Assembly: GCF_013394855.1 (NCBI RefSeq)
Contig: NZ_JABMLK010000001.1
Coordinates: 558,001-622,000, forward strand
DNA length: 64,000 bases
Origin: Limnobaculum xujianqingii
GTDB lineage: Bacteria > Pseudomonadota > Gammaproteobacteria > Enterobacterales > Enterobacteriaceae
Reading direction: 5' to 3'
The notes under the pieces are model-generated. The model saw nothing but the letters and a program-made list of their open reading frames with translations. It ran no database searches and was not told the DNA's origin. Shown here piece after piece: positions 5,981-50,842 of the stretch (position 1 is the stretch's first letter; the number at the start of each line of letters is the position of its first letter). The position numbers were made by a program, and so were the translations under genes.

Positions 5981-7561
5981 ATGCGTCTTGAAGTCCTCTG
6001 CGAAGATCGTCTGGGATTAACCCGTGAACTACTTGATTTGCTGGTTGCCCGCAATCTTGATCTACGGGGCATCGAAATTGATGTCAGCGGTAAGATCTAC
6101 CTTAACTTTTCCTCTATTGATTTTGATGTATTCAGTGCATTGATGGTGAACATTCGTCGGATCACCGGCGTAACCGATGTTCGCACCGTTTCTTATATGC
6201 CTTCGGAACAGCGTTTACACGCATTGAGGGCGTTACTGGAATCTTTGCCTGAACCGGTGATTTCTATCGATTTGAAAGGGCGGATCGACCTGGCTAACCA
6301 TGCGGCTTTGATGCTGTTTGGACTTTCTGAGGAAAGAATACTTACTCAGACTGCTTCCAGCCTGTTAAGTGGCTATAACTTCCTGCGGCATCTGGAAGGG
6401 GAAAACATCATACCCCATTCGGAACGTGCAATTATTCGCGGTCAGGATTACCTGATGGATATCACTCCTATCTACCAGAGTGATGACGATCAGTTGCCGA
6501 AAGAAGTGACCGGTGCAGTAATTGTTCTGAAGTCCGCAGCCAGAATCGGGCGTCAGCTACAGAATAAGAACGTAGCGGATAACAATGCGTTTGGTCATAT
6601 CGTCGCCATCAGCAGCAAAATGAAACTGCTGATAGAGCAGGCCAACAAATTAGCAATGCTGGATGTCCCATTACTGATTATTGGTGATACCGGAACCGGT
6701 AAAGATGTTTTAGCTCAAGCCTGCCACGTTCGCAGCGCTCGTCGGGATAAACCGTTTCTGGCAATTAACTGCGCCTCTTTGCCTGATGATGTGGTGGAAA
6801 GCGAACTGTTTGGCCATGCGGGAAGCGCACAGATCGAAAGCAAAAAAGGTTTTTTTGAACAGGCGAATGGTGGTTCAGTTTTGCTGGATAACATCAGTGA
6901 AATGTCACCAACCATGCAGGCAAAATTATTGCGTTTCCTGAATGATGGTACCTTCCGGCGGGTAGGTGAAGATCAGGAAGTATACGTAGATGTTCGTGTG
7001 ATTTGTGCAACTCAAAAGAGCCTGTTTAATTTAGTCAGTCAGGGGTTGTTCAGAGAGGATCTGTATTATCGCCTGAACGTACTGACACTAACAACTCCTC
7101 CATTACGGGAACGTGTTTCCGATATCATGCCGCTGGCAGAGCAATTTATTACACTGTTCGCCGATCAGTTGGGTGTCCACCGTCCTAAGCTGGCTCCGGA
7201 TTTAACACCGTTATTAACCCAATACGGCTGGCCGGGCAACGTCAGACAATTAAAGAACATTCTTTATCGCAGCTTTACTCAGTTGGAAGGCAATGAGCTA
7301 CAGGTTAAAGATATTGTATTGCCTGAAGTCTCTGCGGAAATGATGCTGAATAATAACATTATGGATGGCAGTCTGGATGAGATCTGTAAACGTTTTGAAT
7401 GTTCAGTATTAACTCAGTTGTACAGTAGCTATCCAAGTACCCGTAAACTGGCTAAACGATTAGGTGTTTCCCATACGGCAATTGCTAATAAGCTCAGAGA
7501 ATATGGTTTAAGCCAACCATCGCGTACTGCTGAAAATGTAGAAGTTGTTGATAACGAATAA
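5981..7561 (+). CDS. tyrR: Aromatic amino acid regulator TyrR
   Basis: TyrR controls aromatic amino acid biosynthesis and uptake genes through sigma-70 promoters. Domains in order: N-terminal ACT domain (1-80), PAS domain (about 80-190), an AAA+ module (about 200-430) with Walker A GDTGTGKD, and a C-terminal helix-turn-helix (STRKLAKRLGVSHTAIANKL). The GAFTGA loop of sigma-54 activators is absent, as in TyrR. The Walker B sequence reads LLDNISEM, with Asn304 replacing the usual Glu. The 526 residues slightly exceed the E. coli protein (513). It faces tpx, as in E. coli. Confidence 0.96.
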   Translation: MRLEVLCEDRLGLTRELLDLLVARNLDLRGIEIDVSGKIYLNFSSIDFDVFSALMVNIRRITGVTDVRTVSYMPSEQRLHALRALLESLPEPVISIDLKGRIDLANHAALMLFGLSEERILTQTASSLLSGYNFLRHLEGENIIPHSERAIIRGQDYLMDITPIYQSDDDQLPKEVTGAVIVLKSAARIGRQLQNKNVADNNAFGHIVAISSKMKLLIEQANKLAMLDVPLLIIGDTGTGKDVLAQACHVRSARRDKPFLAINCASLPDDVVESELFGHAGSAQIESKKGFFEQANGGSVLLDNISEMSPTMQAKLLRFLNDGTFRRVGEDQEVYVDVRVICATQKSLFNLVSQGLFREDLYYRLNVLTLTTPPLRERVSDIMPLAEQFITLFADQLGVHRPKLAPDLTPLLTQYGWPGNVRQLKNILYRSFTQLEGNELQVKDIVLPEVSAEMMLNNNIMDGSLDEICKRFECSVLTQLYSSYPSTRKLAKRLGVSHTAIANKLREYGLSQPSRTAENVEVVDNE

Positions 7562-7581
7562 AGCAAAACTCAGGAAAACAG

Positions 7582-7605
7582 AAGGGAGCCAGTGGCTCCC
7601 TTTTT
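7582..7605 (+). terminator. tyrR terminator
   Basis: AAGGGAGCCA pairs with TGGCTCCCTT, followed by a T-run, 20 bp after the tyrR stop. It may also serve tpx, which ends on the other strand at 7633. Confidence 0.85.
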
Positions 7606-7632
7606 CATGTAATATATTCGGTAGTAATGCGG

Positions 7633-8136
7633 TTATTTCAGTGCGGCCAGCGCAGCATCATAGTTTGGTTTAGTAGAGATCTCTTTAACCAGTTCGCTGT
7701 AAATTACTTTATCGTTAGCATCAAGTACCACTACAGCACGGGCAGTTAAACCTTTTAGTGGGCCGTCCTGAGTATCCACGCCATAATTTTGTTTAAATTC
7801 TGGATTACGGAATACAGACAGGGTAACCACATGATCTAAACCCTCTGCGCCACAAAAGCGTGCTTGAGCAAAGGGCAGATCGCCAGAGATACATAACACA
7901 ACCGTATTATCGACATCACCCACGCGTTGGTTAAAGGTTCTGACCGATGTAGCACACACTGAAGTATCTACACTTGGAAATATATTCAGTACGTTACGTT
8001 TGCCTGCATAGGTACTTAATGTGACATCAGAGAGATCTTTGGCTACCAGGGTAAATGCTTTTGCGCTGTCACCAGCTTTGGGTAATTGCCCGGCAACGGA
8101 TACAGGATTGCCTTTCATTTGTACGGTTTGAGTCAT
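7633..8136 (-). CDS. tpx: Thiol peroxidase Tpx
   Basis: This atypical 2-Cys peroxiredoxin reduces lipid and hydrogen peroxides using thioredoxin. The 167 residues carry the peroxidatic Cys61 in [12 protein letters not shown] and the resolving Cys95 in ARFCGAEG, the same numbering as E. coli Tpx. The ATG follows a GGAGGC-type ribosome site. It is convergent with tyrR, a conserved arrangement. Confidence 0.97.
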
Positions 8137-8496
8137 AACTGCCTCCAGTGAATGTTACTTTAAATTAACAATTAAGTTATCTTAGTCCAACAAAATAGTT
8201 TTGGATATCTCAAAATAAATTAGTGTTGCCGTAAATTGATCCTGCTATTAATTCTCATGCTATTTTTTCTTTTAAAATCAGTTCATTCAGTTTCCTTAAA
8301 TCAAACTTAGCTTGGATCTATTGCTCTAATCAGCAAAAAAATTGATTATTTTTCGCCGGACAACAGGTAGCATCTCTGTATGAATGATCTGTTTTGATTC
8401 ATAATAGCTGTTGATAGATGTAAACTGATGGTTACCCATGTCTGCGGTAAACCAGACAAATTTAACTGATATAAAGCTGAAGTTTAGGAATTAAGA
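8137..8496. other. tpx-ldtE divergent intergenic region
   Basis: This 360-bp stretch has no plausible gene. It contains a 7-bp inverted repeat (TATGAAT ... ATTCATA, 8379-8403) with an 11-bp spacer, which could be an operator. A TATAAA near 8470 could be the ldtE -10. Both calls are weak. Confidence 0.35.
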
Positions 8497-9420
8497 ATGA
8501 ACCGTGTTTTTGCAGTTTGTAAGGCTGTGCTGGCTATGTTGTTCGTTGGTCATTTTTCTGTCGCTCAGGCTATGGAATACCCGCTACCATCGTCGAATAG
8601 CCGTTTAATTGGTGAGAATAGGGTATTGATTGTTCCGAATGACGGACGCTCACTGGAACGAATCGCCTCAGATTATCAAATCGGCCTGATTGCTATGCTG
8701 GAAGCAAATCCGGACGTTGATCCACTATTGCCAAAAGCGGGTTCAGAATTAATTCTTCCGCTGCAAATGATCCTGCCTGATACACCGCGCGATGGCATCG
8801 TTATTAACCTGTCAGAACTTCGCCTTTACTACTATCCGAAAGGAAAAAACACCGTTATCGTTTATCCAATTGGTATTGGCCAGTTAGGTCGAGATACGCC
8901 GGTAATGACGACAACTATTATTGAAAGAAAGGCCAACCCAACCTGGACGCCAACCGCCAATATTCGTAAAAATTACGCGGCAGAAGGTATCATTTTACCG
9001 GCAGTAATTCCGGCAGGCCCGGAAAACCCAATGGGTTTATTTGCCCTACGTCTGGCTGCGGCAGGTGGGACTTACCTGATTCATGGTACTAATGCTGATT
9101 TTGGTATCGGTATGCGTGTAAGCTCTGGCTGTATCCGTTTACGCCCTAACGATATTGAAGAACTGTTTAATACCGTTCCTGTGGGAACCCGAGTTCAAGT
9201 GGTTAATGAGCCGATTAAAGCAACAGTAGAGCCTGATGGTTCTCGTTATGTTGAAATTCATCAGCCATTGTCTAAGTCTGAAAATGACGATCCGCAGACT
9301 AAACCAATTGAAATTCACCCAACTATCGCGACATTTATTAATAACCCGTCAACTGACTCTTCCCGAGTGAATGCTGAAATTGAGCGTCGTTCTGGATTAC
9401 CGTTGCTGGTGAATCGTTAA
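8497..9420 (+). CDS. ldtE: L,D-transpeptidase (LdtE/YnhG type)
   Basis: This is a periplasmic YkuD-family enzyme that forms 3-3 cross-links in peptidoglycan. The 307 residues begin with a signal peptide (cleavage near AQA-MEY, about residue 25), then a LysM-like segment, then the YkuD domain with the catalytic motif HGTNADFG...SSGCIRL. LdtE rather than an Lpp-attaching paralogue is chosen because the convergent lpp and then pykF follow, as in E. coli (pykF-lpp-ldtE). The suf operon that flanks ldtE in E. coli is not here. Confidence 0.88.
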   Translation: MNRVFAVCKAVLAMLFVGHFSVAQAMEYPLPSSNSRLIGENRVLIVPNDGRSLERIASDYQIGLIAMLEANPDVDPLLPKAGSELILPLQMILPDTPRDGIVINLSELRLYYYPKGKNTVIVYPIGIGQLGRDTPVMTTTIIERKANPTWTPTANIRKNYAAEGIILPAVIPAGPENPMGLFALRLAAAGGTYLIHGTNADFGIGMRVSSGCIRLRPNDIEELFNTVPVGTRVQVVNEPIKATVEPDGSRYVEIHQPLSKSENDDPQTKPIEIHPTIATFINNPSTDSSRVNAEIERRSGLPLLVNR

Positions 9421-9443
9421 TAGCGTTAAGGGTAGTGACAAAT

Positions 9444-9473
9444 AAAGCAGTGGGAAAGTCTTCCCGCTGCTTT
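9444..9473 (+). terminator. ldtE terminator
   Basis: AAAGCAG-TGGGAA pairs with TTCCCG-CTGCTTT (one imperfect step). It lies 24 bp after the ldtE stop and ends in TTTAATAATA. Confidence 0.75.
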
Positions 9474-9776
9474 AATAATATTTCCCGCCATAATGTTTTC
9501 CCTTTGATATATTTTCCTGATGTAACTTAATTATTTTCCCTTGCGGTTAAATCTTTTCATCATTGATATTCTATTTCGATAAATAATCGCCTGAGCGCTA
9601 ATTTGAGGCGTTTTTTCCATTACCACTCATACAGGTCTTAAAATTATTTTAATAAGCTTAAAGTGGAGTAGAGACGCTATTATTGCTATTGGGAAGTAAC
9701 GGAACCAAAGTTGAAGAATGAGATAGGGCAGATGGTGAAACGAGAAAGCAGAAAATAGTAACTTGCTAATACGGAT
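9474..9776. other. Empty stretch between the ldtE and lpp terminators
   Basis: About 300 bp of AT-rich sequence lies between two convergent terminators. No open frame with a ribosome site, no repeat and no clear structured RNA was seen. Confidence 0.4.
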
Positions 9777-44021: not shown

Positions 44022-44528
44022 CTAAGGACTAATCGCACAAACATTTACCATGGTATTTCCTGAGTATGTACACCCTTCTCTTGTTCCTATTTTATCCGGA
44101 TGTAAGCAGCCATAAGACACAGTGCCATCACTGTTTGAGGTGCTACTCAATTTTCCTTTGATTTGATTCTTACAACAGCTTTTAAATCCTGAAGGAGTTG
44201 AGTAATCACATCTGTTTGCAGCCTGCGTCATGGAGTCCAACCCTGAACGCACAGATGACATTAGCTCCGGATTATCCGAGTTATTAACTGCCATATCGGC
44301 CAGTCCATTATTAATAGCTTGCATGGCATCTCCACCGGAAGCCTCGGCCATTATGCCTGCACCAACTATTCCCACGATTTGTGAAACCAACGATGAAGAA
44401 TCATCATTACTTTCATTTTCCACCGGTAAGGCAGCTATCTCTTCAGCAACCTTCATATGATTTTTTTGAGACTTTTTTCTCATGAAAATATTTATATGTA
44501 ACCTGAGTAATATATCCATCATTATCAT
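44022..44528 (-). CDS. Hypothetical Cys-rich protein
   Basis: I do not recognise this 168-residue protein. GAGGATAAGAA precedes the ATG, which supports expression. The N-terminal part is basic, the middle is small-residue-rich and mildly hydrophobic (SLVSQIVGIVGAGIMAEASGG), and the C-terminal third holds six cysteines (RCDYS, SCCKN, YGCLH, EGCTY, NVCAI). That pattern fits a disulfide- or metal-stabilised domain. No clear signal peptide. It is convergent with tehB and divergent from marR. Confidence 0.5.
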   Translation of the reverse strand: MIMMDILLRLHINIFMRKKSQKNHMKVAEEIAALPVENESNDDSSSLVSQIVGIVGAGIMAEASGGDAMQAINNGLADMAVNNSDNPELMSSVRSGLDSMTQAANRCDYSTPSGFKSCCKNQIKGKLSSTSNSDGTVSYGCLHPDKIGTREGCTYSGNTMVNVCAISP

Positions 44529-44647
44529 TTCTTATCCTCAAATTTAATGCCAAAGCTCTCCTTTTTTGGCGTTCTCGTTACTCTGATTGAACATTTCACC
44601 AACCATCAATTGCTCTTAACAACTTGCAGACTGATTATAAAAGTGCC

Positions 44648-44674
44648 ATATTGTTTGCAAATGCAAGTAATTTG
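44648..44674. promoter_or_regulatory. Putative MarR operator in front of marR
   Basis: TTTGCAAATGCAAGTAAT lies 12 bp before the marR start and has the TTGCA-N2-TGCAA palindrome. On the minus strand its wider context matches a second site at 50817-50842 almost base for base. A TATAAA just upstream could be the -10, so a bound repressor would block early transcription. Confidence 0.65.
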
Positions 44675-44682
44675 GATGCTTT

Positions 44683-45147
44683 ATGAAATCTACTTCTCCG
44701 CGCCCTTATCCACTGGGTATTTACCTTGATATAACCAATCGTCAGTGGCAACTGGCGATGGAAAAGTCACTATATCCCATTCAAATAAACAAGCCTCAAT
44801 GGCTGGTTCTTAGTGCGATGGATGAGCTCGGCAATGGTTGTAATCTGACTCAAATTGCCGATTTTCTGGCGATGGAAATATCAACGTGTTCGCGGGCTAT
44901 TTCATGGTTAAACCACAAAAAGTACATAGAAAGAATTGAAGACAAAAATGATAAGCGGGCAAAAGTTCTGCATATCACTAACCAGGGCAAAGAAATGTTG
45001 TATCAACTGGATGAAGCCGCTCAGGAAGTGCGTAAAAAAATGCTGGTTAATATTACGCAAGAGCAATACGCGTTATTTCAGCAGGTACTGGATGCCATAA
45101 AAACACAGGCCACTGAAATATTGTCGCAAAATGATCCCTTAGATTAA
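44683..45147 (+). CDS. MarR-family transcriptional regulator
   Basis: The 154 residues form a MarR winged helix: recognition region NLTQIADFLAMEISTCSRAISWL, then the wing (KKYIERIEDKNDKRAKVLHIT with the conserved D-x-R-x3 pattern) and a C-terminal dimer helix. It is the first gene of the molybdenum-hydroxylase locus and is preceded by the palindromic site described above. It probably represses itself and the locus until an aromatic or related ligand binds; the ligand is unknown. Confidence 0.9.
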   Translation: MKSTSPRPYPLGIYLDITNRQWQLAMEKSLYPIQINKPQWLVLSAMDELGNGCNLTQIADFLAMEISTCSRAISWLNHKKYIERIEDKNDKRAKVLHITNQGKEMLYQLDEAAQEVRKKMLVNITQEQYALFQQVLDAIKTQATEILSQNDPLD

Positions 45148-45178
45148 TGGCGAATCAAAAGCACTTTCGGTGAACATA

Positions 45179-46555
45179 ATGAGCAAACAAAAACGCAATT
45201 TAACGTTACTTCTATTGATCGGTGCTTTGGGAATGATGGCCTTCCCCTCCCACTCAAGCACCTCCCCTGATGATCCGGCATTGCTTGCCAGAGGCGCTTA
45301 TCTGGCCCGGGCGGCGGACTGTAATGCTTGTCATCGGGGTGTCGCTCCCGGCTCTGCGGATTACAGCGGTGGCCTGGCTATATCAACCCCGATGGGTAAT
45401 ATTATCGCGACCAATATTACACCGTCCGAACAGTACGGGATTGGTCGTTATTCCGAAGAACAGTTTAAACGGGCAGTGACAGAAGGAATTCGCGCTGATG
45501 GAACACATCTTTATCCTGCAATGCCTTACAGTGCATACCAAGGAATAAGTGATGCTGATATTCATGCGCTTTATATCTGGTTTCAGCAAAGTGTTCCTGC
45601 CTCAGATAATCCACCTCCTGAAACATCCTTAAGTTTTCCCTGGTCAGTCAGAGGATTAATGGCGATATGGAATCCTTTGAATGCTGAACTTCCCGAATCA
45701 GTAGCATCACAAAAAAATCCTCAGATAGAACGTGGCTACTATCTTACAGAAGTGCTGGGTCACTGCTCCGCCTGCCATAGCCCTCGAAATATTATGATGG
45801 GTGAAGATATGGGGCAGCGTTTTTCCGGAGGTGATATTGGCGGCTGGCATGCACCTAATATTACTGCCGACCCGGTTAGCGGGATTGGTGGATGGAGTGA
45901 TTCAGACCTGTCGCACTATTTGAAAAGCGGAAATTTACCCGGTAAAGGCACCGCTGCTGGCGGCATGGCTGAAGCTGTTGACCATAGTCTGCGTTACCTT
46001 TCCGATAACGATATCAGTGCTATGATCGCTTACTTGCGTCAGATACCCGCCATACGCAATTCTGACGATCTAACCCCTGCATGGCAGCATAATCAAAAAC
46101 CTCAGACAGCTGAAAACATTGACCATGAAGCGGCGCTACTTTATCAACAAGCTTGTGCTGCCTGCCATCGCTGTGATGGTGAAGGTGCTTATAACAATAC
46201 TTTCCCTTCGCTAAATGCCAATACCACCACGGGAAGCACCCGCTCTAACAATTTGGTGAAAGTCATTCTTGATGGCGTTCAAAGAGAAGGCGCCAAAAGC
46301 GGCGGTAATATGCCCGCTTTTGGCGAAGCATTAACTGACCAACAGGTTGCCCAACTGACCAATTATGTTGCTCATCGTTTTGGTAATCCTTCCAGTCAGG
46401 TCAGTGCCAGTGATGTTGCCACTCTGAGAGCCGGGGGAGAAAAACCGCTGATTGTCAGATTATTACCGGTGTTCTATGGCATTGCTGCCGTTGTCATTAT
46501 TTTACTGATAGCACTGTTTCTCCGTCGTTCTCGTCGTAAAGGAGCCTCACAATGA
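45179..46555 (+). CDS. Membrane-anchored tri-haem cytochrome c
   Basis: The ATG at 45179 (458 residues) is preferred over a GTG nine bases upstream. A signal peptide is followed by three c-type haem sites: CNACH at Cys48, CSACH at Cys196 and CAACH at Cys326. A C-terminal transmembrane helix (about 425-447) and a basic tail anchor it. The three-domain layout matches the cytochrome subunits of periplasmic alcohol and aldehyde dehydrogenases. It should carry electrons from the downstream Mo enzyme into the respiratory chain. It overlaps the next gene by four bases. Confidence 0.88.
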   Translation: MSKQKRNLTLLLLIGALGMMAFPSHSSTSPDDPALLARGAYLARAADCNACHRGVAPGSADYSGGLAISTPMGNIIATNITPSEQYGIGRYSEEQFKRAVTEGIRADGTHLYPAMPYSAYQGISDADIHALYIWFQQSVPASDNPPPETSLSFPWSVRGLMAIWNPLNAELPESVASQKNPQIERGYYLTEVLGHCSACHSPRNIMMGEDMGQRFSGGDIGGWHAPNITADPVSGIGGWSDSDLSHYLKSGNLPGKGTAAGGMAEAVDHSLRYLSDNDISAMIAYLRQIPAIRNSDDLTPAWQHNQKPQTAENIDHEAALLYQQACAACHRCDGEGAYNNTFPSLNANTTTGSTRSNNLVKVILDGVQREGAKSGGNMPAFGEALTDQQVAQLTNYVAHRFGNPSSQVSASDVATLRAGGEKPLIVRLLPVFYGIAAVVIILLIALFLRRSRRKGASQ

Positions 46556-47004
46556 AATTCATACTAAATGGAAAACCTGTTACGTTTGACGGTGAGCCTG
46601 ATACGCCTTTGTTATGGGTCCTGCGTGAAGATCAACAGCTAACAGGAACAAAATTTGGCTGCGGAATCGGTGCCTGTGGAGCCTGTACCGTACATGTAGA
46701 TGGCGAAGCGGTACGCTCCTGTTGTTATCCATTGCTATTGGTAGAGGGGCGACATGTTACTACTATTGAAGGGCTTAGCCCGGACCGTTCGCATCCGGTT
46801 CAAAAAGCCTGGATAAAAGAAGAAGTTCCTCAGTGTGGATACTGCCAGTCAGGCATGATTATGGCGGTTTCTGCCGTCATGGCTCGTAAGCCTCTGCCTC
46901 CAGAACCTCAAGTTTATAAAGAAATCACTAACATCTGTCGCTGTGCAACTTATCACCGTATTCGCCTGGCAATTCATCGCCTGTATCAGGAACAAGGAGA
47001 ATAA
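46552..47004 (+). CDS. [2Fe-2S] subunit of a molybdenum hydroxylase (IorA-like)
   Basis: The 150 residues carry two [2Fe-2S] clusters. The plant-type site is Cys37, Cys42, Cys45 and Cys57 (CGIGACGAC...SC). The second is in the helical domain (CGYCQSGM and CRCATYHRIR). It overlaps the cytochrome gene (ATGA) and is followed two bases later by the large subunit. Relatives are isoquinoline 1-oxidoreductase alpha subunit and nicotinate or aldehyde dehydrogenase small subunits. Confidence 0.92.
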   Translation: MKFILNGKPVTFDGEPDTPLLWVLREDQQLTGTKFGCGIGACGACTVHVDGEAVRSCCYPLLLVEGRHVTTIEGLSPDRSHPVQKAWIKEEVPQCGYCQSGMIMAVSAVMARKPLPPEPQVYKEITNICRCATYHRIRLAIHRLYQEQGE

Positions 47005-47006
47005 TC

Positions 47007-49241
47007 ATGGCACTGTCACGTCGTCAGTTTTTAAAAAGTGCGGCAATCTTCTCACTGGTTATTCCTTTGATACCCGGAGCCAACGCAGCACTAATTTATA
47101 ATTCCCCTGAGCTTCCCCCTGATGATTTACCAATGAATGACTGGATCTGGATTGGGGCTGATAATCAGATAGTTATCGGTGTATCACAATGCGAAGTTGG
47201 TCAGGGTATCTATACCGGATTAGCTACTGTATTAGCCAGCGAAATGGATGCTGACTGGGATAAGGTTAAAGTTAAATTCGTTATTGGTCGTGATGCCTAT
47301 CGTCAGGAATCTGGCGGTGAAGAAAGATCTCAATTCGTAGCCGCCTCAACCTCCATGACCAACTTCTATCAGAGAATGCGTGTCGCCGGTGCTCAGGCCA
47401 GATGCTTTTTCATCGCTGCCGCAGCACGTGAATGGAATGTTGATGCTCAACAGCTACGCACTGAAAATAGCTTTGTTATTGACGATCATCGGGGTAAAAA
47501 AATTGCCTATTCCGATCTCATTCACTGGTCGCAGGATATTCCTCTGGAAGCTAATCCTGCACTGAAAACCGCCGAACAGGAAAAAGGCAGCCTGATTGGT
47601 CGTAACCTGCCCCGTATCGATTGTGGCGAGAAAGTTGATGGCAGTGCTGAATTTGGTATCGATGTTCAGGTACCAGATCTGCATATTGGCGTACCCTGGA
47701 TGGGACCTTCTCTGAATGGCAAACTGGGCAGCATTCGTAACGAAAAACAGATCCTTTCTCTGCCAGGTGTCATTGCTTTAGTTCGCACTCGCCACTGGTC
47801 AACGCTGAATATGGCACGACTGGACCCGGATATGGCTCCTAATACCATTATTGTGGTCGCAAGAACTTACTGGCAGGCGAAAAAGGCTGCCGATCGGCTG
47901 GATGTGGAGTGGATATTCAGTGATAAGGATAATTTTTCCAGTGAAACCATTAACCAGGATAATAAAAAGGCACTGGAAAGTGATGATTTCATCACTGCGA
48001 CCAATATCGGTGATGCTCAGGGAATCATAGATAATGGTCGAAATAGCTCCCGGTTTCATGAAGCTCGTTACAAAGCACCCTACATCACCCATGCCACCAT
48101 GGAACCCTGCAATGGCACATGCTATGTAGAAAAAGATCGGGTCACCGCCTGGGGGCCTTTTCAGGGACAGGATCTAGCCCAAAAGCTGATATCAATATTT
48201 GCCGGGGTACCTATTGAAAACGTCACCCTGCACAACACACTTCTTGGTGGCAGTTATGGGAGGAAATATATTCCCGACCCTGCTATGCATGCCTGTCTGG
48301 CGTCGAAAGCTACGGGTAAACCGGTTAAAGTGATTTATCCTCGCGAGGTTGATATTCAACATGCCTATTATCGTCCCGGAAACACCAGTCATTATCAGGC
48401 ATTGCTGGATGAGGATGGTTATCCTTTAGCCCTATGGGCTCGCTACGCTGGTCAGGGATTATTCTGGCAACTACATCGTTCACGGGTAACAAAAAACGGT
48501 GGCTGGGATGAAACCATTGTTGAATGTGTCTACAACACCCGCTATGACCTTCCTGCACTTAAAGTGGAGTCGATAACCGTTGAGCAAAATATCTCCCTGA
48601 GCTTTCTTCGCGGTGTAGGTAGCGTTGCCAGTATCTTCTTTCTGGAAAGCTTCATTAGTGAACTGGCTATCAAAGCCAATAAAGACCAACTTGAATACCG
48701 CATGCGACTGCTAAAAAATGAGCCTGAAATGCAGCGAGTATTAAAAGCGACGGCGGATGCCGCAGGTTGGGGTAATCCTCTGGCGGATAACCATTATCAG
48801 GGAATGGCCGTCAATATCTGGGTGGCACGAGATGAAGCTTTTATCAGTTATGTGGCTCTGGTTGCTGAAATAGAAGTTCTGGGTAGTGCATGGAAGGTCA
48901 CCCGAATGGTATGTGGTGTGGAGTGCGGTAAAGTGATCAATCCGGGGCTTATCAAAGCAAACATCGAAGGTGGGATTGGTTTTGCGCTGAGTGGAGCCTT
49001 ACACAGTCAGCTTCATTTTGAACATGGAGGCATCGTGGAAAGTAACTACAATAATTACGGTGTACTTCAGCTGTCAGAGCAGCCAGAAATTGAAGTGGTT
49101 ATTCTTGATAGTGAACGTGCCCCGCAAGGTTGTGGTGAAGTTTCAACTGCGGTAGTTACGCCAGCTATTGCCAGCGCATTACAGGTTGCCACGGGCAAAA
49201 CCTACACTGAAATGCCCTTCCCGGCTATTTTAGAGCGTTAG
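47007..49241 (+). CDS. Molybdopterin subunit of a molybdenum hydroxylase (IorB-like)
   Basis: The 744-residue catalytic subunit starts with a Tat signal (SRRQFLK, then a hydrophobic stretch ending near ANAAL), so the enzyme acts in the periplasm after folding with cofactor. Xanthine-oxidase-type motifs are present: QCEVGQGIYTGL, the region THATMEPCNGTCYV, a GGSYGRKY loop and, near the end, PQGCGEVSTAVVTPAIASAL with a candidate catalytic Glu. The single-chain form fits IorB and similar aldehyde or N-heterocycle dehydrogenases. The substrate is unknown. Confidence 0.9.
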   Translation: MALSRRQFLKSAAIFSLVIPLIPGANAALIYNSPELPPDDLPMNDWIWIGADNQIVIGVSQCEVGQGIYTGLATVLASEMDADWDKVKVKFVIGRDAYRQESGGEERSQFVAASTSMTNFYQRMRVAGAQARCFFIAAAAREWNVDAQQLRTENSFVIDDHRGKKIAYSDLIHWSQDIPLEANPALKTAEQEKGSLIGRNLPRIDCGEKVDGSAEFGIDVQVPDLHIGVPWMGPSLNGKLGSIRNEKQILSLPGVIALVRTRHWSTLNMARLDPDMAPNTIIVVARTYWQAKKAADRLDVEWIFSDKDNFSSETINQDNKKALESDDFITATNIGDAQGIIDNGRNSSRFHEARYKAPYITHATMEPCNGTCYVEKDRVTAWGPFQGQDLAQKLISIFAGVPIENVTLHNTLLGGSYGRKYIPDPAMHACLASKATGKPVKVIYPREVDIQHAYYRPGNTSHYQALLDEDGYPLALWARYAGQGLFWQLHRSRVTKNGGWDETIVECVYNTRYDLPALKVESITVEQNISLSFLRGVGSVASIFFLESFISELAIKANKDQLEYRMRLLKNEPEMQRVLKATADAAGWGNPLADNHYQGMAVNIWVARDEAFISYVALVAEIEVLGSAWKVTRMVCGVECGKVINPGLIKANIEGGIGFALSGALHSQLHFEHGGIVESNYNNYGVLQLSEQPEIEVVILDSERAPQGCGEVSTAVVTPAIASALQVATGKTYTEMPFPAILER

Positions 49242-49796
49242 ATGCCAGGAATATTGCTGATCGCCGCAGGCAAAGGTGAACGCTACCGGGCGGCTGGCGG
49301 AAAGGGAGAGAAACTCATGGCTCCCCTTTCTGCTCATCATGGCCGCCCACTTTTCAGCGTAGTACTGGAAACCGCGATCGCCAGTCAACTGCCGCTACAT
49401 ATTGTTACCCGTCCGGACAACATCCCCATCATACAACTGGCTGCTGATAACGGTATTGCAGTAACCCTGCTTAACAGCCAGAGTATGGGGGAAAGTATTG
49501 CAGCGGGAGTAAAAGCGACCGATGACTGGGATGGCTGGCTAATACAACCTGCTGATATGCCAGAAATTACCGTCAGGGATTATCATCGTATCGTACAGGC
49601 CCTGCAACACAGTTCGCAGGCCAGACTTTATTGGCAGGAGCAGCCCGGTCATCCTGTCGGGTTCTCTCAACAATGGCGAGATGCGTTATGCCAGCTCTGT
49701 AATGAAGAAGGCGCTAAAAACGTGATTAACCATTCATTGCTTAGGCTAAACGGCCATCCGGGTGTGGTTATCGATCGTGATTTTCCTGAAGAATAG
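49242..49796 (+). CDS. MobA/MocA-like molybdenum cofactor nucleotidyltransferase
   Basis: The 184 residues start directly after the Mo subunit stop. The N-terminal LLIAAGKGERYRAAGGKGEK motif and the QPADMPEI metal-binding strand identify a MobA-like NTP transferase. Those linked to xanthine-oxidase-family enzymes (MocA) usually attach CMP to give the MCD cofactor. It should equip the upstream subunit. Its last 29 bases overlap the opposing xdhC-like gene. Confidence 0.88.
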   Translation: MPGILLIAAGKGERYRAAGGKGEKLMAPLSAHHGRPLFSVVLETAIASQLPLHIVTRPDNIPIIQLAADNGIAVTLLNSQSMGESIAAGVKATDDWDGWLIQPADMPEITVRDYHRIVQALQHSSQARLYWQEQPGHPVGFSQQWRDALCQLCNEEGAKNVINHSLLRLNGHPGVVIDRDFPEE

Positions 49797-50769
49797 TTGC
49801 CAGATTTTTATGTTTTACAATATCTGCCATCACAGATAGTGCAATTTCTGAAGGGGTTTTGCTGCCAATATCCAGACCAACAGGGGCATGCACTCGTTCT
49901 AATTCTGATTCGGTTAACCCTCCTGTCCGGGCCAGTCTTTTCAATCGATTCTCACTGTTTTTAGCCGAGCCCATTACGCCGATATAAAACGCCGGGGTAT
50001 TTACGGCCTCCATAATAGTTAAATCATCCATGCGAGCATCATGTGTCAGCGCCACTATCGCGGTCTGAGGATGACAACCTTCAGTCTCCAGATACACAGC
50101 AGGAAACTGCTCCAACACACTGATGGGCGAGCTGACTAATGGAAGTAATTGTGTCAAAAACTGCGGACGAGGTTCACAAATAACAACTTCAAACCCCAAA
50201 CTATAAGCAAAGGAGACGCAATATTCAGCCACACTGGACCAGCCAGCCACAACCAATCGTGGAGATGCACCATGCCAGATGGTTACCATTCCCGTTGATA
50301 GATCAACGCCTGGAGCGCTTCTCTGATTCACGTCATTCAGACTATGGCAGGCATGGGACAATATCAGCTGTTTTTGCAAGGGTTGACTGCCATTCACCGC
50401 GGCAAGCATTCTTTTTAAATAGCGTTGCGTATTGTCATCGGGCTGCAGAAACTCAACCAATACATCCAGCCTGCCGCCACAAGGCAATCGGGTATCCGGC
50501 TCCAGTCCTCCATCACCATAGGTTACAATTTGGCTGAGTTGGCGCCACTGCCCGGCTTTTATCTGGCGAAGAAAACTCTGTTCGACACAGCCGCCGGATA
50601 ATGATCCACACCAGTTACCCTCGGCATTAACCACCATCAACGCCCCAGGAGATCGCGGTGAAGAGCCCCAGGTTTTTAGTACCGTACATAACCAGACCGG
50701 CTGAGCTATTGCCCAGTCAATGGCTTGAAGAATAACTCGTTGGTCAGTTGGAAGTGATGAAGTAACCAT
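49768..50769 (-). CDS. XdhC/CoxI-family molybdenum cofactor maturation factor
   Basis: The 333 residues have an N-terminal XdhC domain (WLCTVLKTWGSSPRSPGALMV, CGSLSGGCVE) and a C-terminal Rossmann domain with VALTHDARMDD and YIGVMGSAKNSENR. This family sulfurates and inserts the cofactor into xanthine-oxidase-type enzymes. It is convergent with the MocA-like gene. Its promoter region carries the second copy of the putative MarR operator. Confidence 0.9.
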   Translation of the reverse strand: MVTSSLPTDQRVILQAIDWAIAQPVWLCTVLKTWGSSPRSPGALMVVNAEGNWCGSLSGGCVEQSFLRQIKAGQWRQLSQIVTYGDGGLEPDTRLPCGGRLDVLVEFLQPDDNTQRYLKRMLAAVNGSQPLQKQLILSHACHSLNDVNQRSAPGVDLSTGMVTIWHGASPRLVVAGWSSVAEYCVSFAYSLGFEVVICEPRPQFLTQLLPLVSSPISVLEQFPAVYLETEGCHPQTAIVALTHDARMDDLTIMEAVNTPAFYIGVMGSAKNSENRLKRLARTGGLTESELERVHAPVGLDIGSKTPSEIALSVMADIVKHKNLATILQENHDR

Positions 50770-50816
50770 AAGCCTCCCGGACAGACATTGCTCAGATAGG
50801 TTAACTCAGTTGTATC

Positions 50817-50842
50817 ATTATTTGCATTTGCAAGCAAATAGC
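50817..50842. promoter_or_regulatory. Second copy of the putative MarR operator, upstream of xdhC
   Basis: ATTATTTGCATTTGCAAGCA followed by AATA lies 48-73 bp before the xdhC start. Compared with the minus strand at 44648-44674, ATTA-TTGCATTTGCAA-CAA is shared with only single-base changes. The site overlaps the likely -35/-10 region of the xdhC promoter (TGATAC on the minus strand). Confidence 0.65.

Follow-up and report, generated by a model that had tools for sequence, protein, structure and literature searches.

Comparison with described systems

Several described systems share features with a molybdenum (Mo) hydroxylase locus of Limnobaculum xujianqingii, the subject of this study, and with the MarR-family regulator (MarR) encoded beside it. 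The locus lies in a 64,000-nucleotide stretch, the window (positions 558,001 to 622,000 of contig NZ_JABMLK010000001.1). As judged from its predicted subunits, the enzyme is similar to 8gy3, a three-subunit aldehyde dehydrogenase linked to cytochrome c, which matches the Mo subunit over residues 3-738 and to the cytochrome c subunit over residues 20-398 (the cytochrome numbering runs one lower, its first base having been taken as 45182). Both have cytochrome, [2Fe-2S] and Mo components, encoded here by separate genes; the matches are distant (171.9 and 190.0 bits). In the Escherichia coli Pao system, PaoD is an XdhC-family protein and PaoB is the flavin adenine dinucleotide (FAD) subunit. PaoABCD is described as a Mo aldehyde oxidoreductase of the periplasm, served by a dedicated chaperone, PaoD (PMC3909100). 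PaoC partially matches the Mo subunit (residues 195-566, about 78 bits), but the locus differs in lacking a FAD subunit (six open reading frames, ORFs, fill 44683-50769, none with a FAD-binding Pfam match) and in having xdhC opposed to the operon rather than last within it. Pseudomonas putida PP_3621-PP_3623 (IorA-II, beta subunit, AdhB), termed an aldehyde oxidase complex (PMC7188995), likewise combine [2Fe-2S], Mo and cytochrome c components, a likeness of annotation only.

On the regulatory side, the SlyA proteins (4aih, 3q5f) of the MarR family share with the locus MarR a MarR-type winged helix, by sequence, and a palindromic site near their own gene; the locus MarR differs in its sub-cut-off score for the SlyA equivalog and in what appears to be a local regulon of two sites. 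The SlyA site, TTAGCAAGCTAA, differs from the operators described here. The nicotinate catabolic locus includes a cytochrome-linked Mo hydroxylase, and NicB is a Mo-cytochrome gene fusion, which is not the arrangement in this locus. NicR and BpsR are MarR regulators of nicotinate catabolism (PMC6837509), and the likeness to the locus MarR, MarR-type control of a catabolic locus, is one of description only. In the open-licence literature searched, we found no description of this operator or regulon; letter strings of the core turn up in ten papers.

Two palindromic sites in the locus are very likely operators of the neighbouring MarR, which would act as a local, autoregulated repressor of two convergent units: marR with the cytochrome c, [2Fe-2S], Mo and MocA-like genes, and xdhC. 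The proposal of the preliminary description, that one regulon joins enzyme and cofactor-maturation genes, is supported by the near-uniqueness and the conservation of the extended motif.

Two palindromic sites and their rarity

The two sites are as follows.

44650..44671, no strand assigned: operator 1, ATTGTTTGCAAATGCAAGTAAT, with an exact TTGCAAATGCAA core at 44655-44666
50817..50838, no strand assigned: operator 2, ATTATTTGCATTTGCAAGCAAA, with an exact TTGCATTTGCAA core at 50822-50833

Operator 1 lies between marR and a 168-amino-acid (aa) ORF on the minus strand, its centre 22.5 base pairs (bp) before the marR ATG; operator 2 is centred 58.5 bp before the xdhC ATG. The preliminary description had reported matching 26-bp sites with TTGCA-N2-TGCAA symmetry. 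Near-identity was borne out, with 19 of 21 bases common to both sites when site 1 is read on the minus strand (ATTA[C/T]TTGCATTTGCAA[A/G]CAA), but the shared length is about 22 bp rather than 26: similarity fades outside the 21-bp block, and the DNA flanking site 1 bears no relation to that flanking site 2. The symmetry is present in the window, whereas what the clade as a whole conserves is a TTGC-N4-GCAA core between A/T-rich arms (consensus about TTTRYTTGC-N4-GCAARYAAA) and the Serratia sites differ.

The 12-bp core alone was dropped as evidence. At up to one mismatch it occurs 4 times in the window against 4.95 expected, showing no enrichment, and genome-wide there are 7 places with the exact TTGCANNTGCAA core, compared with 10 in the reversed control. 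The case therefore rests on the extended site. At up to two mismatches the sole genomic matches to ATTAYTTGCANNTGCAARCAA are operators 1 and 2, both with 0 mismatches. Relaxing the threshold to three adds two further places, each with 3 mismatches; per-strand counts are then 3 and 3 versus 1 and 3 in the reversed control, and because the control also matches at this loose setting, we regard the 3-mismatch matches as background. Scored with a matrix built from 12 relatives' sites from outside the genus Limnobaculum, these two places reach 13.9 and 14.8 bits, under the maximum of 19.4 bits found in 40 first-order random 64-kilobase (kb) sequences. With the same matrix the operators rank first and second in the window (operator 2, 31.3 bits; operator 1, 30.6 bits), the next score being 2.2. 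A clade pattern composed after viewing the relatives' sites, TTTRYTTGCNNNNGCAARYAAA with up to 2 mismatches, matched 5 places in the genome, two of them the operators, against 0 in the reversed control; the other three score at most 14.2 bits. The extended motif is near-unique genome-wide, and the scatter at random frequency that the preliminary description had named as fatal to a regulon did not occur.

Conservation at the marR and xdhC promoters

We searched 295 sampled family genomes for MarR (E <= 1e-22) and for the Mo subunit (E <= 1e-100). Each was found in 10 of the 295, and these were the identical ten, from 7 genera and including the source genome itself. The marR-side palindrome is present in all ten. 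In nine, a 22-bp site upstream of marR has at most 2 of 18 mismatches; the exception, G241, has two overlapping exact 12-bp cores upstream of marR, with palindromes 15 bp apart. In a separate test, the 150 bp upstream of marR were compared with 2000 random sequences per locus. At 11 of 12 loci 0-3 of the random sequences did as well as the observed match, and at G241 53 did so. Two more Serratia records (L037 and L038) also carry the marR-side site; L035, L036 and L039 were treated as G188, G096 and G195 and not counted twice. A contig scan matched 27 stretches, 5 of them relatives, of which 3 were among genomes already used.

When the window was aligned with G003, G019 and G188, the operator was kept while most other intergenic DNA had diverged. 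The site is 22.5 bp from the marR ATG in the window, G003 and G019; taking the first ATG of G188 gives this spacing there too. Across 45 genome pairs, MarR identity correlated with that of the cytochrome c (r = 0.92), Mo (0.90) and [2Fe-2S] (0.74) subunits, the longest aligned piece per genome being used.

The xdhC gene faces the operon in six loci (the window, G003, G019, G188, G241 and G013), and five of these six have an xdhC-side site (27.3-31.3 bits). With the respective genus left out of the matrix, the sites of G019, G188 and G241 score 31.4, 30.4 and 23.3 bits; spacing to xdhC is 58.5-60.5 bp in G003, G019 and G188. In G096, where xdhC comes after the Mo gene and shares its strand, there is no separate xdhC site, and where the best xdhC lies outside the locus, in G029, G195 and G278, no site was found in the roughly 1.5 kb examined on each side. 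This distribution implies that, G013 excepted, a second operator is present where xdhC has a promoter of its own within the locus. The conservation in orthologous loci that the preliminary description had called for is thus seen in 10 of 10 genomes before marR and in 5 of 6 loci before an opposed xdhC, and its proposed link between cofactor maturation and enzyme expression is supported without being universal (G013, G096, G029, G195, G278). By eye from the ORFs, the xdhC genes of G029 (L105), G195 (L103) and G278 (L104) stand beside other Mo-hydroxylase-like genes.

As a class-level control we sampled 369 genomes, of which 31 besides the source genome have a Mo homologue at E <= 1e-100. The resulting 32 Mo places (32-37% identical; up to 8 kb on each side, 540 kb in total, several clipped by contig ends) contain 0 exact 12-bp cores and 15 with 1 mismatch, with a best score of 5.2, and no relative of this MarR at E <= 1e-8. 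A narrower control (29 of the 32 non-own Mo places, about 1.5 kb flanks, 146.6 kb; 0 exact cores, 3 with 1 mismatch, best score 2.0) was replaced because each window operator is over 1.5 kb away from the Mo gene; the wider flanks upheld its result. In the stretches examined, none of the 32 loci (L124-L155) shows a protein related to this cytochrome c (E <= 1e-8), most have a [2Fe-2S] subunit, and many have XdhC. Loci of more distant MarRs, 21 in number, score at most 13.4 bits. An order-level search for MarR relatives in 394 sampled genomes gave 10 loci, none with another operon gene (E <= 1e-8, about 1.5 kb) or an exact core; a 1-mismatch core is present in 4 of the 10.

A proposed local repressor and its alternatives

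We propose that a dimer of MarR recognises TTTRYTTGC-N4-GCAARYAAA-like palindromes at two promoters, its own and that of xdhC, the former probably also driving the cytochrome c, [2Fe-2S], Mo and MocA-like genes. MarR would repress both units until released by a small ligand, probably a substrate or product of the enzyme such as an aldehyde or aromatic acid, whereupon the enzyme and its dedicated maturation genes would rise together. The enzyme itself is probably a periplasmic, Tat-exported (twin-arginine translocation), membrane-anchored Mo hydroxylase, which would deliver electrons to the respiratory chain by way of its tri-haem cytochrome c subunit. We favour repression relieved by a ligand because operator 1 is close to the marR start and because of what is generally known of MarR proteins; an operator centred just before a start codon is typical of steric repression.

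That position, 22.5 bp before the marR start codon, also speaks against the reading that MarR is an activator, or acts in both ways, instead of being a simple repressor. SlyA proteins, the nearest solved relatives of this MarR, can activate by antagonising silencing, and the placement of operator 2, 58.5 bp from the xdhC start codon, is compatible with a site upstream of a promoter. MarR scores far under the SlyA equivalog cut-off, however (59.2 of 120 bits), and we consider activation unlikely.

Several observations weigh against a local MarR regulon. Our promoter scan, which did no better than chance (9 matches against 10.9 expected), gives no plus-strand promoter for marR near operator 1. 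In G013 xdhC is opposed, yet no second site accompanies it (best score -1.4); on its strand, 117 bp upstream, is an ORF of 303 aa that by eye resembles a transporter. In G241 the marR-side sites are a poor fit to the 22-bp consensus, with 4 mismatches. The sites behind the matrix had been located through the window's motif, so its independence is incomplete, and many of the class-level control loci are G+C-rich, which alone lowers scores. A 13.4-bit site lies about 108 bp upstream of the MarR match in the distant locus L046, the four loci of whose genus score at most 5.8 bits. An exact 22-bp site of 30.5 bits occurs in G195 (C1:228204) within an unrelated ORF; we rejected it as a further regulon member, since the ORF is acyltransferase-like by eye, and took it as chance. 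Finally, the looser 22-bp pattern has 4 places each in G001 and G002, which belong to the same genus and lack this MarR, all eight scoring at most 18.6 bits versus 31.3 and 30.6 for the window sites.

The G001 and G002 matches, together with TTGCA-type cores elsewhere in the genome (7 places in all), would suit a different, global regulator that binds the palindromes beside a coincidentally adjoining MarR, and the assignment of binding to MarR is itself read from sequence. Such a regulator would nevertheless have to act at an extended motif with no further copy in the genome within 2 mismatches, and at a marR-side site found in each of the ten genomes with this MarR, and the 32 related Mo loci of other families, which do not have this MarR, lack the motif; we hold it to be very improbable. 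Weakest of all, and scarcely credible, is a chance likeness or functionless remnant of a duplicated promoter: a partial marR 5' copy with a site in LSJC7 (L035:7318) indicates that such duplications happen, but the two window sites have unrelated flanks, and both keep near-fixed spacing in G003, G019 and G188 despite divergence of the DNA around them. The LSJC7 copy spans L035:7318-7620, about 1.6 kb upstream of the intact marR, and its palindrome was discarded as a third regulon member because it belongs to that copy.

The local MarR repressor is the reading we retain. By all appearances this is a local MarR regulon of an ordinary kind, and comparative genomics supports it well. For an uncharacterised Mo hydroxylase it supplies a precise operator, a proposed regulon of two units and a way towards the substrate: a compound that frees MarR from the operator would likely be either the substrate of the enzyme or its product. 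A further suggestion is that a maturation factor comes under its client enzyme's switch when its own promoter adjoins the enzyme locus. More tentatively, and with considerable doubt, operator and gene order may co-evolve: in relatives within the Enterobacteriaceae, a small MarR clade would sense either the substrate of a periplasmic cytochrome-linked Mo hydroxylase or its product, xdhC would have joined or left the regulon by operator gain or loss with changes of position and orientation, and the mocA/xdhC overlap would add a second layer of coordination.

Genes of the locus and neighbouring features

The gene set given in the preliminary description was confirmed in its order from ORFs and domain matches.

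44683..45147, plus strand: MarR-family regulator, 154 aa; Pfam MarR 2.9e-09
45179..46555, plus strand: cytochrome c subunit with three CXXCH haem motifs; ATG start, with a GTG at 45170 also in frame
46552..47004, plus strand: [2Fe-2S] small subunit; Pfam Fer2 and Fer2_2
47007..49241, plus strand: molybdopterin large subunit (Mo subunit); Pfam MoCoBD_1/2; best PDB match 8gy3_C, residues 3-738
49242..49796, plus strand: MocA-like nucleotidyltransferase; Pfam NTP_transf_3 1e-20
49768..50769, minus strand: XdhC-family maturation factor; Pfam XdhC_C 3.6e-35 and XdhC_CoxI 1.7e-17

The genes from marR to mocA are all on one strand, with a gap of 31 bp between marR and the cytochrome ATG and later gaps smaller or overlapping, whereas mocA and xdhC are convergent and their 3' ends overlap by 29 bp. 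MarR exceeds the cut-offs for PF01047 (37.1 bits versus 24.6) and MarR_2 (30.8 versus 27) and falls below that of the SlyA equivalog NF002926 (59.2 versus 120); its nearest solved structures are SlyA 4aih and 3q5f (46.3 bits to 4aih), and a predicted palindromic site stands at its own promoter. With a profile of the ten MarRs, 5081 candidates from a database of 5.8 billion yielded 23 protein clusters at E <= 1e-20. One protein, P0008, is 49% identical; its source label, Salmonella enterica serovar Choleraesuis, may be wrong.

The [2Fe-2S], Mo and multi-haem cytochrome c subunits are encoded together, as in 8gy3-type enzymes. The cytochrome, whose best PDB match is 7w2j_C and which also matches 8gy3_A, has by eye a C-terminal hydrophobic segment. 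The Mo subunit begins with a sequence, SRRQFLK, that is Tat-like by eye, has GCGE at residue 708, and scores far below the cut-off of the xanthine dehydrogenase equivalog (NF043082, 129.4 bits versus 780). The MocA-like protein is a probable Mo cofactor (Moco) cytidylyltransferase, with 55.8 bits to TIGR03310, under the 186 cut-off; XdhC has 144 bits to NF045664, under the 350 cut-off. In the sister species G003 (L026, about 7062-9746), the Mo gene and apparently the [2Fe-2S] gene too align in two frames, with a TAA in the Mo match; the enzyme there looks inactivated while both putative operators persist.

Two further features lie near operator 1.

44022..44528, minus strand: 168-aa ORF, no Pfam or NCBIfam match, divergent from marR
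44622..44628, plus strand: possible accessory half-site ACTTGCA upstream of operator 1, forming an inverted repeat with 44662-44668

The half-site is a possible accessory element; the sequence CTTGCAGA upstream of operator 1 is kept in all four sequences aligned (window, G003, G019, G188). A minus-strand 9/12 promoter match lies at 50930-50903, upstream of operator 2 and xdhC. The strongest promoter match (10/12; 44634-44661, minus strand) has its first hexamer inside operator 1 and is directed away from marR, and the divergent 168-aa ORF could also be affected by operator 1.

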